From Desulfocarbo indianensis (lineage in GTDB: Bacteria; Desulfobacterota; Desulfarculia; Desulfarculales; Desulfarculaceae): a stretch of DNA of 64,000 nt. Shown in pieces: positions 15,351-23,332 of this stretch (position 1 is the stretch's first letter; every line of letters begins with the position of its first letter). The DNA is taken from contig LBMP01000001.1 of assembly GCA_001184205.1 (NCBI GenBank), positions 1,268,001-1,332,000 on the forward strand, read 5' to 3'. The notes below the pieces were generated by a model that searched no databases, was not told the DNA's origin, and saw nothing but the letters and a program-made list of their open reading frames with translations. The translations under genes were made by a program, and so were the position numbers.

Positions 15351-16307
15351 ATGACCGAGGACCAACTGCGCTATCAGAACCTGCTTTTGCGGGCCCAGCA
15401 GGAGACCGCACCCGACGGCATCCTAGTGGTGGACCAGGACGGGGCCATCAAGTCCTGGAATCAGCGTTTCCTGGATATCTGGGGGCTCTCCGGGGAGTTG
15501 ATGCGGACCGGCGAGGCCAAACAGACCCTGGAGGTGGTGAAGCCTCTCGTGGCCGACCCCGAGGCCTTTGCCCAGCGGGTGCAGTACCTATACGACCATC
15601 TGGAGGAGCACGAAGCGGGCTGGGAGGTGGCCCTGGTCGATGGCCGGGTGTTGGTGCGGCACTCCCGCGGGCTGGTTGACGAGAGCGGCCGCTATTGGGG
15701 AAGGGTCTGGTTCTACAGGGACATAACCACCCGGGTGCGGATGGAGAGGGAGCTTCGCCAACACCATGAGCACCTGGAGGAGCGGGTGGCCGTTCGCACC
15801 GCCGAGCTGGAGGCCGAGATCGAGCGCCGCCGAGCCACCGAGGAGCAGCTGCGCCTCAAGGAAAAGGACCTGGAAGCCCAGGCCCTGCGACAGGAGGAAA
15901 CCAACATCGCCTTGCGGGTTCTGTTGAACCAACGCTCCGAGGACAAACAGGACCTGAGCCGAGACTTCCGCGCCAACCTGGAGACCATGGTGCTGCCCTA
16001 TCTCCGGGAACTGGAGGCATCGGCGCTCGACCGGCAGCAGCAGGCCCTGGTGGAAATAATAGGCTCAAACTTGGAGCAACTGGTCAGCCCGTTCGCGCGC
16101 AAGCTGGTGGAAACCCATCCCGAGCTTACCCAACGGGAGGTGCAGGTGGCCGATCTGGTCCGCGGGGGCAGAAGCAACAAGGAGATCGCGCCCCTTTTGG
16201 GCATCAGCTCGCGGGCGGTGGAGTACCACCGCGAGAACATCCGCCGCAAGCTGGGTCTCACCGGCCGCCGGGCCAATTTGCGCTCTCGCCTCTTATCCCT
16301 CAAATAA
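15351..16307 (+). CDS. PAS-domain LuxR-type transcriptional regulator
   Basis: 318 residues: PAS domain (about 5-125, ending in the PAC-like WGRVWFYRDIT), a long charged coiled coil (about 128-200), then a LuxR/GerE helix-turn-helix at the C-terminus (LTQREVQVADLVRGGRSNKEIA, ISSRAVEYHRENIRRKLG). There is no kinase domain, so it should bind a signal directly and regulate transcription. GAGG lies just before the ATG. The next gene downstream on the same strand is a small secreted protein, preceded by an inverted repeat that could be its site. Confidence 0.92.
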   Translation: MTEDQLRYQNLLLRAQQETAPDGILVVDQDGAIKSWNQRFLDIWGLSGELMRTGEAKQTLEVVKPLVADPEAFAQRVQYLYDHLEEHEAGWEVALVDGRVLVRHSRGLVDESGRYWGRVWFYRDITTRVRMERELRQHHEHLEERVAVRTAELEAEIERRRATEEQLRLKEKDLEAQALRQEETNIALRVLLNQRSEDKQDLSRDFRANLETMVLPYLRELEASALDRQQQALVEIIGSNLEQLVSPFARKLVETHPELTQREVQVADLVRGGRSNKEIAPLLGISSRAVEYHRENIRRKLGLTGRRANLRSRLLSLK

Positions 16308-16501: not shown

Positions 16502-16789
16502 ATGAAGACAAAGACGGCGGCCATCACCTTGGGGACCATCCTGGCTCTGGCCGGCGGTTTTTACCTGGGCTCCGGAGTGCAGGCCGGTAACTGCGATATT
16601 GGCGGCGACGTCGGCCCAGGCGTGAAGATCACCCTGGCCGAAAACCAGACCAAAGACACCGAAAAGAAGCCATGCCCCAACACCAAAGAGGATAAGGGCA
16701 AAGACGACAGCCAAAAAGCCGAGGGCCAGGACGCCAAGAAGCCCTCGCCGCCCGTGATTCCCCGCATAGCCCCGGACGAGGGTTGCTAG
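16502..16789 (+). CDS. Small secreted Lys/Asp-rich protein, function unknown
   Basis: 95 residues: signal peptide (about 1-28, ending GVQAG), then a low-complexity, highly charged, proline-ended mature part with three Cys (NCDIGG, KPCPN and terminal EGC). The GGGGGAGA ribosome site fixes the start; an earlier in-frame ATG at 16481 lacks one. No homologous family recognised. Confidence 0.65.
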   Translation: MKTKTAAITLGTILALAGGFYLGSGVQAGNCDIGGDVGPGVKITLAENQTKDTEKKPCPNTKEDKGKDDSQKAEGQDAKKPSPPVIPRIAPDEGC

Positions 16790-16926
16790 GCGTTAAAGCC
16801 TCCGATCAGGCATAAGACATAGTTTCCGGGCGCTTGCGTAGCCCGTTAAGAAGACGGGGCGCGTCTTCGGAGGAATGATGCGCCCGAAAGCCATAACCCC
16901 GAGAGGAACCCAACAGGAGGAATGCA

Positions 16927-18399
16927 TTGTTATCCAAAAGATGGCTCGCCTCGCTGACCGTTGCCGCGCTGGCGGCGGCTGGCGCGGTCGCGCTACCCGC
17001 GGCGGCCGCCCAGAAGGAAGCTGACAGGGCCTTGATGAAGGCTCCTGCCGCCGACTGCGCGGTGGTGGCCGATTTCGCGGGCATAAAGAACGTGACCACC
17101 AAAAGCTTCATTCGCAAGATTACCTTGAACGAGGGCTTGGTGATACGCCAGAGCCGCATCGAAGGCGGCAAGATCATCATTCCGCCCTCCGGTCTCTACT
17201 ACAGCACCCGCACCCCCAAAAGCGGCGTGCTGCAGGGCGACCAGGTGCTGATCCTGGGCAAGCTCTACCATTTCGTGGACCAGGCCACCAAGCTGGACGT
17301 CATCAAAGACGTCTGGGTGGACAAGGGCGGGGCCGCGCCCTTTGGCGACGGCACCAAGGTGCTTGAGCTTTCCAGCCTGCAAATGGGAGCCAACGGCTTC
17401 CCCGTGGCCAATGCCACCTTCAAGATTCTCAAGCAGTCCGGCAACTACTACGGGGTCACCTTTCCGGTGGCCACCAGCGAGCTGTTCACCGACATCGCCT
17501 CCGGCGCCCTGAACAAGGGCGCGGGCCGCGAGACCGGCTCCTACCTGCCCGAGCAGAAGGGCCAGGACTTTGAGACCGAGTATTACGCCAGTTCGGTGGC
17601 GGTCAGCGGTCAGACCTACCTGACGGCGGCCGAGGTGGGCCCCAAGGGTGCCAAGATCGTGGAGTTCGGCACCGGCGCCTTGCGCTTTATGCTGCTGACC
17701 GAGAAGGACCCCAAGCAGGCCCTCATGGGCGCCGGCGACGCCATTTCCTGCGGCGGATTCACCGTCAAGGTCACCGAGGTGGGCTCCGACTACGCCAAGG
17801 TGGAACTTAAGCACCAGGACAGCGGCAAGACCTGGACCAAGCAACTGGGGCCCTTGACCGCCGAGGTGATGAAGTACATGCCGGTGGACGAGGAGGAGCG
17901 CGGTCGCTTCATCCTGCGCGACGACCAGGACCGGGCCCAGGTGCAGATGAACCTTTACAAGGCCGGCGGTCCTTTCAAGGCCGGCAAAGTGGAGATCGCC
18001 CTGTACACCGACCTCATGAAGTTGGGCAACCCCAGCCGGTGGGCGGCGGACGATCGCTTCCTCTACCGCCCGGATACTTGAAGCACCTGCTCCATGTTCA
18101 TCGAGGGCATGCTTGAGAATGACAAGCAGATCGTCCTCGATGCAGCCAACAACGTGTTTGTTGGTCCCAACGGCTACTTCAAGATCGTTATCGACAAGTT
18201 TGACGGCAAAACCATCCAGGCCTGGCACGTTGAAGACGCCCAGGGCAACTCCACCGGCAACCTGGCGCGCCGCAGCGGCGGCAAGCATATCGACCTGCTG
18301 GTGAACAAGGATTGCCGCACGGTTTCTCATTTCCTCAAGCGCATCGCGCTGAAGGTGATCGCCGAGCAGCAAGACCTCCTAAGGAAGTTGGAGAAGTAA
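16927..18399 (+). CDS. Secreted protein with in-frame TGA, probable selenoprotein (490 aa, Sec385)
   Basis: Starts at TTG with AGGAGG 6-7 nt upstream; the nearby ATG at 16922 is in another frame. Signal peptide about 1-29, then a 460-residue mature protein without known domains. TGA at 18079-18081 interrupts the frame, but the same frame continues for 106 codons with unchanged codon bias and protein-like sequence. The ATG at 18094 after the stop has no ribosome site. The junction reads DT-U-STC-SM, a U-x-x-C pair like redox CxxC. A hairpin CATGTTC-ATCGA-GGGCATG follows, its loop 18 nt after the TGA. A nonsense mutation of a Cys or Trp codon is the alternative. Confidence 0.72.
18093..18111 (+). 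promoter_or_regulatory. SECIS-like hairpin after the TGA at 18079
   Basis: Seven-pair stem CATGTTC/GGGCATG (two G-U pairs) with loop ATCGA, extended by CTC/GAG across a three-base bulge. The loop begins 18 nt after the TGA, within the spacing of bacterial SECIS elements. The loop has a single G rather than the common GG, so this is the weakest of the four. Confidence 0.45.
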
Positions 18400-18420: not shown

Positions 18421-18460
18421 CCGGGCCGCCGGAACCATTCCGGCGGCCCGGCCTTTCATT
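18421..18460 (+). terminator. Rho-independent terminator
   Basis: Perfect 14-bp stem (18421-18434 with 18438-18451) and a CCA loop, followed by CCTTTCATT. It directly follows the 18399 stop, which supports that stop as the true end of the interrupted gene. Confidence 0.85.
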
Positions 18461-20259: not shown

Positions 20260-20296
20260 TTTGCCCGCCCATGAGGGCGATAGTGGTCCTTACACG

Positions 20297-21412
20297 ATGA
20301 AAGCTTCCCTGGCGGAACCGCGCGGCCCGGACACGGGCCGCTCCACGGCCGACGTGATAGCGCGCTATCTGTCGGCGCTCAAACGCCGCTATCTCTTAAT
20401 GGGGGCGTTGACCGTCCTGCTCATCGCGCTGGCCCTGCAGGCGGTGGCCCTGGGCGCCTATGATCTCTCGCCGCTGAAAGTGCTGTGGGCTCTGTTGGGC
20501 CGGGCGGAAGGCCCCCAGGCGGCGGTGATCTGGAACATACGCCTGCCCCGCATAGTGGCGGCGGTGGTCACGGGCTGGGGGCTGGGGCTTTCCGGCCTGG
20601 CCACCCAGACCCTGCTGCGCAATCCCCTGGCCTCGCCGTTCACCCTGGGCATAAGCCACGGCGCCATCTTCGGCGCGGCGTTCGCCATCGTGTTTCTGGG
20701 GGCGGGCGCCGTCAGCGCCAGCGCCTTGCACACGGCCGGGCCCGCCGATTTCATGTTCAGCGGCCTGTACGCCATCACCGGCCTGGCCTTCGCCGGGGCC
20801 ATGAGCGCCACGGTGGTGATCCTGATCCTGGCCCGCCTGCGCAAAATGAGCCCCTCGGCGGTGATCCTGGCCGGGGTGGCCATGTCGTCGCTTTTCATTT
20901 CCGGCACCATCTTGATTCAGTATTTCGCCACCGAGATAGAGATAGCCTCCGTGGTTTTCTGGACCTTTGGCGACGTGGCGCGTTCCAGCTGGGGCGAAAT
21001 ACTGCTTCTCGGCCTGGTCACCCTGGCGGTGACCCTTTATTTCCTGCGGCGCAGGTGGGAGCTTAACGCCTTGCTGGCCGGCGACGACAGCGCCCAGGGC
21101 CTGGGCGTGAGCGTCACCCGCCTGCGGCTCACCGGCATGTTTCTGGCGACCCTGGCCACCGCCCTGGCCAACGCCTTTCACGGGGTCATCGCCTTCCTGG
21201 GCCTCTTGGCTCCCCATATCGCGCGCCGCATGGTGGGAGGCGACCACCGCTTCCTGGTGCCCCTGTCCGGCCTGGTGGGAGCGCTCCTTTTGCTGGCGGC
21301 CGATACCCTGGGCCGGCTGGCGGTGGGCTCGGGCACCCTGCCGGTGGGGGTGCTCACCTCCTTCATGGGCGCGCCCCTGTTTCTCTATCTGCTCTTGAAG
21401 GACCGGCCATGA
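20297..21412 (+). CDS. FecCD-type ABC transporter permease (metal chelate/corrinoid)
   Basis: 371 residues from the chosen ATG, with about ten transmembrane segments and BtuC/FecCD signatures (RLPRIVAAVVTGWGLGLSG, NPLASPFTLGIS, GVIAFLGLLAPHIARRMVGGDHR). It forms the inner-membrane channel for siderophores, haem, corrinoids or other metal chelates. An unusual N-terminal cytoplasmic tail of about 35 residues precedes the first segment; an in-frame ATG at 20261 would lengthen it. The ribosome site is weak. It overlaps the ATPase gene by 4 nt. Confidence 0.93.
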   Translation: MKASLAEPRGPDTGRSTADVIARYLSALKRRYLLMGALTVLLIALALQAVALGAYDLSPLKVLWALLGRAEGPQAAVIWNIRLPRIVAAVVTGWGLGLSGLATQTLLRNPLASPFTLGISHGAIFGAAFAIVFLGAGAVSASALHTAGPADFMFSGLYAITGLAFAGAMSATVVILILARLRKMSPSAVILAGVAMSSLFISGTILIQYFATEIEIASVVFWTFGDVARSSWGEILLLGLVTLAVTLYFLRRRWELNALLAGDDSAQGLGVSVTRLRLTGMFLATLATALANAFHGVIAFLGLLAPHIARRMVGGDHRFLVPLSGLVGALLLLAADTLGRLAVGSGTLPVGVLTSFMGAPLFLYLLLKDRP

Positions 21413-22236
21413 CCCTGGAAACGCGCGGCCTGCATTTTTCCTATAACGGCCGGCCGGTGCTGGCGGGCCTGAGCCTTTCCCTGGCCAGGGGGGAGAGCGT
21501 CGGCATCCTGGGCGTCAACGGGGCCGGCAAGTCCACCCTCCTGCGCTGCCTCAACCGCAACCTGAAGCCCCAAAAGGGAGCCGTGCTGGTGGAGGGCCGC
21601 AACCTGGCGGATTTGAGCGGCGAAGAGATCGCCAGGCTGTTGGGCTACGTGCCGCAGAACCGGTTCACCGATCCCCTGAACGTTTTCGATTCGGTGTTGC
21701 TGGGCCGCAAGCCCCACATCAAATGGCAGGCCAGCGGCCGCGATCTCCAGGTGGTGGCGGAGGTGCTGGCCCAGATGGGGCTGGAGAAATTGGCCATGCG
21801 CCCGGTGGCCAGCCTCAGCGGCGGCGAGGCCCAAAAGGTGGTCATCGCCAGGGCCCTGGCCCAGGAGCCCCGCATGCTGCTCTTGGACGAGCCCACCAGC
21901 AATCTGGACCTGCGCAATCAATTGGAGCTGATGCGGCTTTTGGGCCGCGTGATGAAAGACAAGGGAATAGGCGCCGCCGTTTGCCTGCACGACATCAACC
22001 TGGCCCTGCGCTACATGACACGGCTGGTTCTGCTCAAGGAGGGCGGGATCAAGGCCATACTGACGCCGGAGCAATTGTCGCCGGAGCTGATAAGCGAGGT
22101 TTACGGCGTGGAGGTGATTCTGGCCCAGGTGGCGGGGCATCGCGTGGTGATCCCCCAGGAGGCGCGCGGCGAGCCAGCCGAGGGCGGGTTGGACGCCAAA
22201 CTTGACAGGGAGACGGTAGGACATGACTCGAATTAG
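21409..22236 (+). CDS. FecE/BtuD-type ABC transporter ATP-binding protein
   Basis: 275 residues with all ATPase motifs: Walker A GVNGAGKST (about 38), Q-loop VPQN, signature LSGGE, Walker B LLLDEPTSNLD and switch His CLHD. It powers the adjacent permease. ATGA overlap with the permease, 14-nt overlap with the binding protein gene. Confidence 0.96.
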   Translation: MTLETRGLHFSYNGRPVLAGLSLSLARGESVGILGVNGAGKSTLLRCLNRNLKPQKGAVLVEGRNLADLSGEEIARLLGYVPQNRFTDPLNVFDSVLLGRKPHIKWQASGRDLQVVAEVLAQMGLEKLAMRPVASLSGGEAQKVVIARALAQEPRMLLLDEPTSNLDLRNQLELMRLLGRVMKDKGIGAAVCLHDINLALRYMTRLVLLKEGGIKAILTPEQLSPELISEVYGVEVILAQVAGHRVVIPQEARGEPAEGGLDAKLDRETVGHDSN

Positions 22237-23332
22237 GATTTTTTCAGCCGGCGCGCTGGCGGCGTTGGCGTTGATCATATGCCTGGCCGGTGGGGCGCCG
22301 GCCGACGATCTCATGCGGATTCGCGACATGACGGGACGCTCGCTGACGGTGCCCCGCCAGCCGGACAGGGTCGTTTGCCTGGGGCCGGGTTGCCTGCGCC
22401 TCTTGGCGTATTTGCAAGCCACCAAAGAACTGGCGGGCATAGAGGAAATGGAAAAGCGCTTTCCCACCGGCCGCCCCTATTACATGGCTCATCCCGAATT
22501 GGGCGGCTTGCCCACCATGACCCCCGGCGGGGTGAGTGGCATAAACAAGAAGCCCAACCTGGAGGGGGTGCTCAAGGTCAGGCCCCAGGTGATCTTCGCC
22601 ACCTACATGCACGCGGCCACGGCCGAGGAAGTGCAAAGGCTGCTGGGGATTCCGGTGGTGGCGCTCTCCTATGGGCCCTTGGCCGGTTTTGATGCCAAGG
22701 CGGTCTACGGCTCCCTGCGTCTGGCCGGCCGCATCATGGGCCAAGAAAAAAGGGCCGAGGCGGTCATCGCTTATCTGGAAGCCGCCCAGCGGGATTTGCA
22801 GGAACGGGCCCGCGGAGCCGCGGAAAAGCCCCGCGCCTACGTGGGCGGCCTGGGATTCAAAGGGGCCCACGGCATAGAGAGCAGCGATACGCAATACCTG
22901 CCTTTCCGCTGGCTGGGCGTGGAGAACGTGGCCAAGGGGGAGGGCCGCAGGACGCAGATATTTATGAGTAAGGAAGTTCTGCTCCGCCTGGACCCTGAAG
23001 TGATTTTCCTGGACGGCGGCGGCTTGGCCCTGGTGACGGCTGACTACGCCAAGAAGCCGGAATATTACAGCCAGCTTTCCGCGTTCAAAATGGGCAAGGT
23101 GTTCCTGCTGCATCCCTTTAATTGGTACACCACCAACCTGGGCACCGCCCTGGCCGACGCCTATGCCATCGGCAAGATTCTCTATCCCCAGCGCTTCGCC
23201 GACATCGACCCGGCCCGCAAGGCCGACGCCATATACGATTTCCTGGTGGGCAAGCCGGTCTACCGGGAGATGAAAGGCATATACGGCCCCTTGGGAGCCG
23301 CGCCGCCCTTCAGGGGAGGTGACAGGCCATGA
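22223..23332 (+). CDS. Periplasmic metal-chelate binding protein (FecB/BtuF family)
   Basis: 369 residues: signal peptide (about 1-29), then a two-lobed class III binding protein starting MRIRDMTGRSLTVPRQPDRVVCLGP in blocks typical of the family. It collects the ligand from the outer-membrane receptor and passes it to the ABC permease. The distinctive IESSDTQYLPFRWLGVEN segment is seen in FmdE-linked relatives from sulfate reducers (from memory). The substrate is unassigned. Translationally coupled to genes on both sides. Confidence 0.92.
   Translation: MTRIRIFSAGALAALALIICLAGGAPADDLMRIRDMTGRSLTVPRQPDRVVCLGPGCLRLLAYLQATKELAGIEEMEKRFPTGRPYYMAHPELGGLPTMTPGGVSGINKKPNLEGVLKVRPQVIFATYMHAATAEEVQRLLGIPVVALSYGPLAGFDAKAVYGSLRLAGRIMGQEKRAEAVIAYLEAAQRDLQERARGAAEKPRAYVGGLGFKGAHGIESSDTQYLPFRWLGVENVAKGEGRRTQIFMSKEVLLRLDPEVIFLDGGGLALVTADYAKKPEYYSQLSAFKMGKVFLLHPFNWYTTNLGTALADAYAIGKILYPQRFADIDPARKADAIYDFLVGKPVYREMKGIYGPLGAAPPFRGGDRP

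Follow-up and report, generated by a model that had tools for sequence, protein, structure and literature searches.

A putative exported selenoprotein of an uncatalogued family, with a UGA/Cys column in a U-x-x-C motif, from Desulfocarbo indianensis

The window analyzed here, a stretch of 64,000 nucleotides from Desulfocarbo indianensis, contains a reading frame that opens with TTG at position 16927, is interrupted by one in-frame TGA and closes with TAA at 18397-18399 (Table 1). The first-pass annotation had described this architecture from the sequence: a TTG start, a signal-peptide-like N-terminus (judged by eye), a lone TGA at codon 385 and a frame continuing beyond it. All of these features are borne out, the continuation comprising 105 sense codons before the TAA. 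The terminator proposed 3' of the final stop was likewise recovered as a 14-pair stem, and four relatives carry comparable GC-rich stems downstream of the gene (flanks inspected by eye). Nearly the entire gene is also covered by an antisense ORF of 459 aa (16993-18372, minus strand). The sense frame is identified as the true gene by homology at 20-33% identity in that frame together with an excess of differences at third codon positions before the TGA (0.326, vs 0.225 and 0.147 at the other two). In G004, G008 and G010, too, the gene is overlapped by long antisense ORFs; GC-rich codon structure probably gives rise to them, and they could mislead annotation.

Table 1. Features at the selenoprotein locus (window coordinates).
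Feature	Position	Strand	Remarks
PAS-LuxR regulator gene, upstream	15351..16307	+	Pfam; by tblastn a neighbour in G010 too
Small secreted protein, 95 aa, C-terminus IAPDEGC	16502..16789	+	Adjoins the selenoprotein gene in relatives too
Shine-Dalgarno AGGAGG	16915..16920	+	6 nt upstream of TTG; by eye
Putative selenoprotein gene, uncatalogued family, predicted secreted product	16927..18399	+	490 codons: TTG start, internal TGA, TAA stop
Predicted Sec-UGA, codon 385, motif U-S-T-C	18079..18081	+	Masked-column count 7 TGA / 12 Cys, n=19
Candidate SECIS hairpin, interrupted 15-pair stem	18087..18129	+	-14.5 kcal/mol
Cys388 codon, U-x-x-C partner Cys	18088..18090	+	Column: Cys 16/19, Gly 3/19
Second hairpin GCCAACAA-CGTGT-TTGTTGGT	18145..18165	+	Identical in five orthologues
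Terminator-like stem, 14 pairs, 3' of final stop	18421..18451	+	

To examine the frame across genomes, we searched 60 related genomes, including that of D. indianensis itself, and obtained matches in seven. Five of these carry the full-length gene (again counting our own), and in every one a single TGA interrupts the frame, always at the same codon and within the surroundings RPDT-U-STCSMFIEGMLEND; the other four full-length orthologues share 67-74% identity with the window protein. A sixth copy, in G019, is cut short ahead of the TGA position. Across the taxonomic family, the gene was found in 6 of 20 genomes, a patchy distribution. Conservation of the gene peaks directly after the TGA—27 of the first 29 residues are invariant, and nucleotide identity over this stretch reaches 0.94.

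More distant relatives were retrieved from 395 genomes of the phylum (matches in 9), from searches around these phylum-wide matches (1/1, 2/5 and 8/85 genomes) and from a scan of genome contigs, which yielded four loci, two of them new—one in a Thermodesulfovibrionia and one in a Nitrospirae bacterium. Two of the distant relatives, those in G140 and G498, also have TGA at the column matching codon 385, within the motif U-P-Q-C, and all remaining relatives that reach this column have Cys there. The Cys types include a C-G-H-C form, borne by double-domain proteins (about 950-1000 aa) in their second half, and a C-P-Q-G form that makes up a third group of relatives. The first-pass proposal placed the UGA within U-S-T-C, which is confirmed, and had set beforehand a search for homologues spanning the UGA and an inspection of the column for Cys. 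When Sec was replaced by X ahead of the alignment, the codon 385 column came out as 7 TGA, 12 Cys and no other residue (n=19); the homologues continue past the UGA, and neither Trp nor Arg occurs at this position. Three residues downstream, Cys is found in 16 of the 19 sequences and Gly in the three CPQG sequences, so that the C-x-x-C pair is not universal. No column besides these two has Cys in at least 8 of the 19.

This count leaves out fragments lacking the column (L014, L015, L029/L062 and L069), duplicates of the same gene (L009, L016, L017, L018, L021-L024 and repeated double-protein loci) and the first-half repeats of double proteins, e.g., L025 and L026, which by eye have no Cys at the matching place. 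The partial sequence L061 is counted among the 19 and excluded from the 18-row tree. On that tree, the UGA forms fall into two clades, USTC and UPQC, and the Sec/Cys label needs two changes; a single origin of the UGA state may be compatible with the starred branches. The same-column TGA occurs in seven genomes from three taxonomic families (f1, f15 and f38), and Sec and Cys forms are found together within one genome in G004 and in G498. As separate observations, L025, L026 and L027 are tandem duplications of the Cys type (about 950-1000 aa) with C-x-x-C only in the second copy (by eye), and L015 (1006-1257 in G031) is an N-terminal fragment of a relative with an early stop, likely a gene remnant.

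The D. indianensis genome encodes a tRNA-Sec (75.4 bits, anticodon tca) and has matches to SelA (519.5 bits) and to the SelB wing (71.5 bits). Weak matches to the tRNA-Sec model occur even in each of the 14 control genomes, and for this reason strong matches alone were counted. In six of the seven UGA-bearing genomes, tRNA-Sec scores at least 69 bits; in the seventh, G013 (70% complete), no strong tRNA-Sec match was obtained. Of 16 additional genomes that have a member of the family, 13 reach at least 69 bits, the three without a strong match being G013, G105 and G486, and in G105 and G486 only Cys forms were found.

Neither Pfam nor NCBIfam contains a model that matches the protein above its cutoff (for NCBIfam, no match at E≤1), in keeping with the initial description of a protein with no recognizable domain. 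The family is also absent from a 2026 table of 119 selenoprotein families (PMC13188914), a catalogue comparison made through Pfam and NCBIfam models and covering every table entry except those identified solely by a cd or PTHR number; a literature search did not find the family in print. Against Pfam, NCBIfam and that table, the earlier claim of a new selenoprotein family holds and is supported at the level of sequence comparison. Structural searches were equally unproductive: the best sequence match among solved structures was at chance level (E 0.31), and Foldseek with the C-terminal model returned no match at E≤0.001, its phosphatase matches being short and weak. The AlphaFold models are of low confidence (mean pLDDT 45.5 for the whole protein and 62.9 for the C-terminal part, poor around the motif) and consist mostly of beta strands. 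No sequence match to a thioredoxin fold around UxxC was detected, in a region where these models are poor.

Selenoproteins with UxxC listed in the PMC13188914 table include GrdB, Sec-thioredoxin and DsbA/DsbG-like proteins. The window protein resembles such bacterial selenoproteins in its in-frame UGA within U-x-x-C, its C-x-x-C Cys homologues and the Sec machinery in the genome, but differs from them in having no above-cutoff Pfam or NCBIfam match. Unlike the small thioredoxin-like UxxC selenoproteins, it is long, predicted to be exported and beta-rich in the low-confidence models. A further parallel is offered by DG, DW and DF, described in the deep-Sep study (PMC12013277) as hypothetical selenoproteins from sulfate-reducing bacteria with alternating UGA and Cys, as seen here; however, the models NF049953, NF041197 and NF049942, listed for them in the PMC13188914 table, fail to match the window protein at E≤1.

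With regard to function, an alternative is that the protein contains selenium but binds metal in the manner of NosL (PF05573), instead of acting in redox or sulfur handling—a reading that would leave Sec decoding unaffected and that we regard as unlikely. NosL binds Cu(I) through Cys and Met, and USTCSM resembles the CPVCGM of NosL proteins, a similar CxxCxM motif, with a faint likeness extending over some 35 residues. Pfam registers this as a weak NosL match over residues 383-440 (E 0.027), but its 15.2 bits lie below the cutoff of 24. A profile comparison with the CPVCGMFV pair scored 25.6-27.1, yet 2 of 20 column-shuffled controls exceeded 27.1, and the match disappears once the motif is removed. 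The Met, moreover, is absent from most Cys forms. Membership in NosL is accordingly not supported, given the sub-cutoff score and the lack of any profile match beyond the motif.

As for the UGA itself, its occurrence at one fixed UGA/Cys column, the conservation extending across it and the presence of tRNA-Sec, SelA and SelB lead us to read it as Sec; judged from these sequence data, the product is very probably an exported selenoprotein of 490 residues with Sec at codon 385. Three other readings were weighed against this one. In the first, the TGA would be a true stop followed by a separate small gene, with coupled translation yielding proteins of 384 aa and 101 aa. The sole notable start after the TGA is an ATG at 18094 (ORF 18094-18399, 101 aa), five codons after the TGA and kept in both USTC and UPQC forms, as such a gene would require. 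As the initial annotation had noted for a second gene, no Shine-Dalgarno sequence was seen by eye upstream of this ATG; furthermore, the four codons separating TGA and ATG, which include Cys388, are all kept in the five orthologues, and the 12 Cys-type sequences run unbroken across the site—making a separate gene highly improbable. Reading of the UGA as Trp, Arg or through a suppressor tRNA is scarcely credible, given that relatives have neither Trp nor Arg there, that every non-UGA form has Cys and that tRNA-Sec, SelA and SelB are all present. Finally, a nonsense-mutated pseudogene or a sequencing error, to which a lone stop in an otherwise open frame might point, can be dismissed in view of the recurrence of the TGA in seven genomes of three taxonomic families and the superior conservation of the stretch directly after it.

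By analogy with established bacterial Sec biology, the UGA of the proposed selenoprotein gene would be decoded by SelB and Sec-tRNA with the aid of an RNA hairpin just downstream. The 7-pair hairpin originally reported with its loop 18 nt downstream was not reproduced; the best fold is instead the interrupted 15-pair stem, whose loop, GGCATG (18106-18111), lies 24 nt past the UGA, and the perfect 7-pair hairpin of the window sits elsewhere than claimed, about 64 nt downstream of the TGA. The published bSECIS model (loop 16-37 nt after the UGA) is passed by the window, but also by 215 of 400 random window TGAs; being non-discriminating in this GC-rich DNA, it was rejected as proof. Orthologues in G010 and G008 have a compatible hairpin like that of the window, with a GG loop; G013 passes the model only via another hairpin, and G004 fails. 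In G140 and G498, the UPQC forms have 8-pair stems (-12.3 and -9.6 kcal/mol) that place a GGUCU loop 21 nt past the UGA, the only strong SECIS candidates obtained, and fdhF of E. coli yields a GGUC loop in the same test. Neither the window stretch nor L028/L063 gave a SECIS match with Rfam. Overall, a SECIS for the UGA group of the window appears plausible.

Constraint at the nucleotide level was also assessed through synonymous codons. Among 28-codon windows, the one with the best synonymous identity in the whole gene begins at the codon after the UGA, with 19/24 vs 116/238 elsewhere (hypergeometric 0.0036, for a single window and uncorrected for scanning). A run of nine identical synonymous codons is not significant alone, such a run being reached in 1313 of 5000 shuffles. 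The second hairpin, with seven perfect pairs (eight with G-U), spans about 64-85 nt after the UGA, beyond the usual SECIS distance, and coincides with the rare codons GTT (0.117) and GGT (0.081), adjacent to GCA (0.045; values are fractions of their amino acid).

We also surveyed the genomic context. In the window and in G004, G008 and G013, a small protein ending in IAPDEGC is encoded upstream of the selenoprotein gene; it combines a divergent low-complexity linker with a conserved C-terminus and an invariant terminal Cys. A search of the 20 family genomes recovered the small gene in 5, all of which have the selenoprotein gene, complete or cut; the copy in G013 was found by direct comparison. 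The window gene is flanked by the PAS-LuxR regulator and an alpha/beta hydrolase, with a FecCD-type transporter further on, and its own neighbours include no sulfur genes. Among the relatives, the Cys form of two Nitrospirota adjoins DsrE genes and, in one of them, rhodanese as well; in G105, an arylsulfotransferase and cytochrome c554 are nearby. The Cys form of G084 lies near a molybdopterin oxidoreductase, NrfD, an arylsulfotransferase and a protein of PF03601, the family to which YeiH presumably belongs. PMC12423496 describes YeiH as exporting sulfite.

The UxxC/CxxC motif, the sulfur-gene neighbours of relatives and the Cys-ended small protein upstream point to thiol/selenol redox or sulfur handling outside the cytoplasm, and we infer from motif and neighbourhood that the family may perform exported sulfur or thiol chemistry. 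Sec385 and Cys388 of the exported protein would form a redox pair of the selenenylsulfide/dithiol type, which could reduce, exchange or carry sulfur on a periplasmic substrate, with the small secreted protein and its conserved C-terminal Cys as redox partner or substrate. We advance this specific role tentatively, as a possibility at rather less than even chance. A bolder version, more speculative still and on balance improbable, is an exported two-component selenium relay in which a non-thioredoxin, beta-rich Sec-x-x-Cys protein would work with a tethered small protein bearing a Cys on a flexible arm (IAPDEGC), its synthesis involving an unusual SECIS that includes the second, strictly conserved hairpin (64-85 nt past the UGA); if true, the Sec-x-x-Cys pair would swap sulfur or electrons with the terminal Cys of the small protein. 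In either version, the Cys-ended neighbour is a concrete candidate partner.

Because no domain is annotated in this family, standard annotation would stop at residue 384, losing 105 residues that open with the best conserved stretch. The existence of Sec and Cys forms in related bacteria, sometimes in one genome, makes a direct comparison of Sec with Cys possible. Further downstream in the window (20261-23332), we additionally observed genes for a FecCD permease, an ABC ATPase and a periplasmic binding protein, corresponding to an importer of the metal-chelate or corrinoid type.
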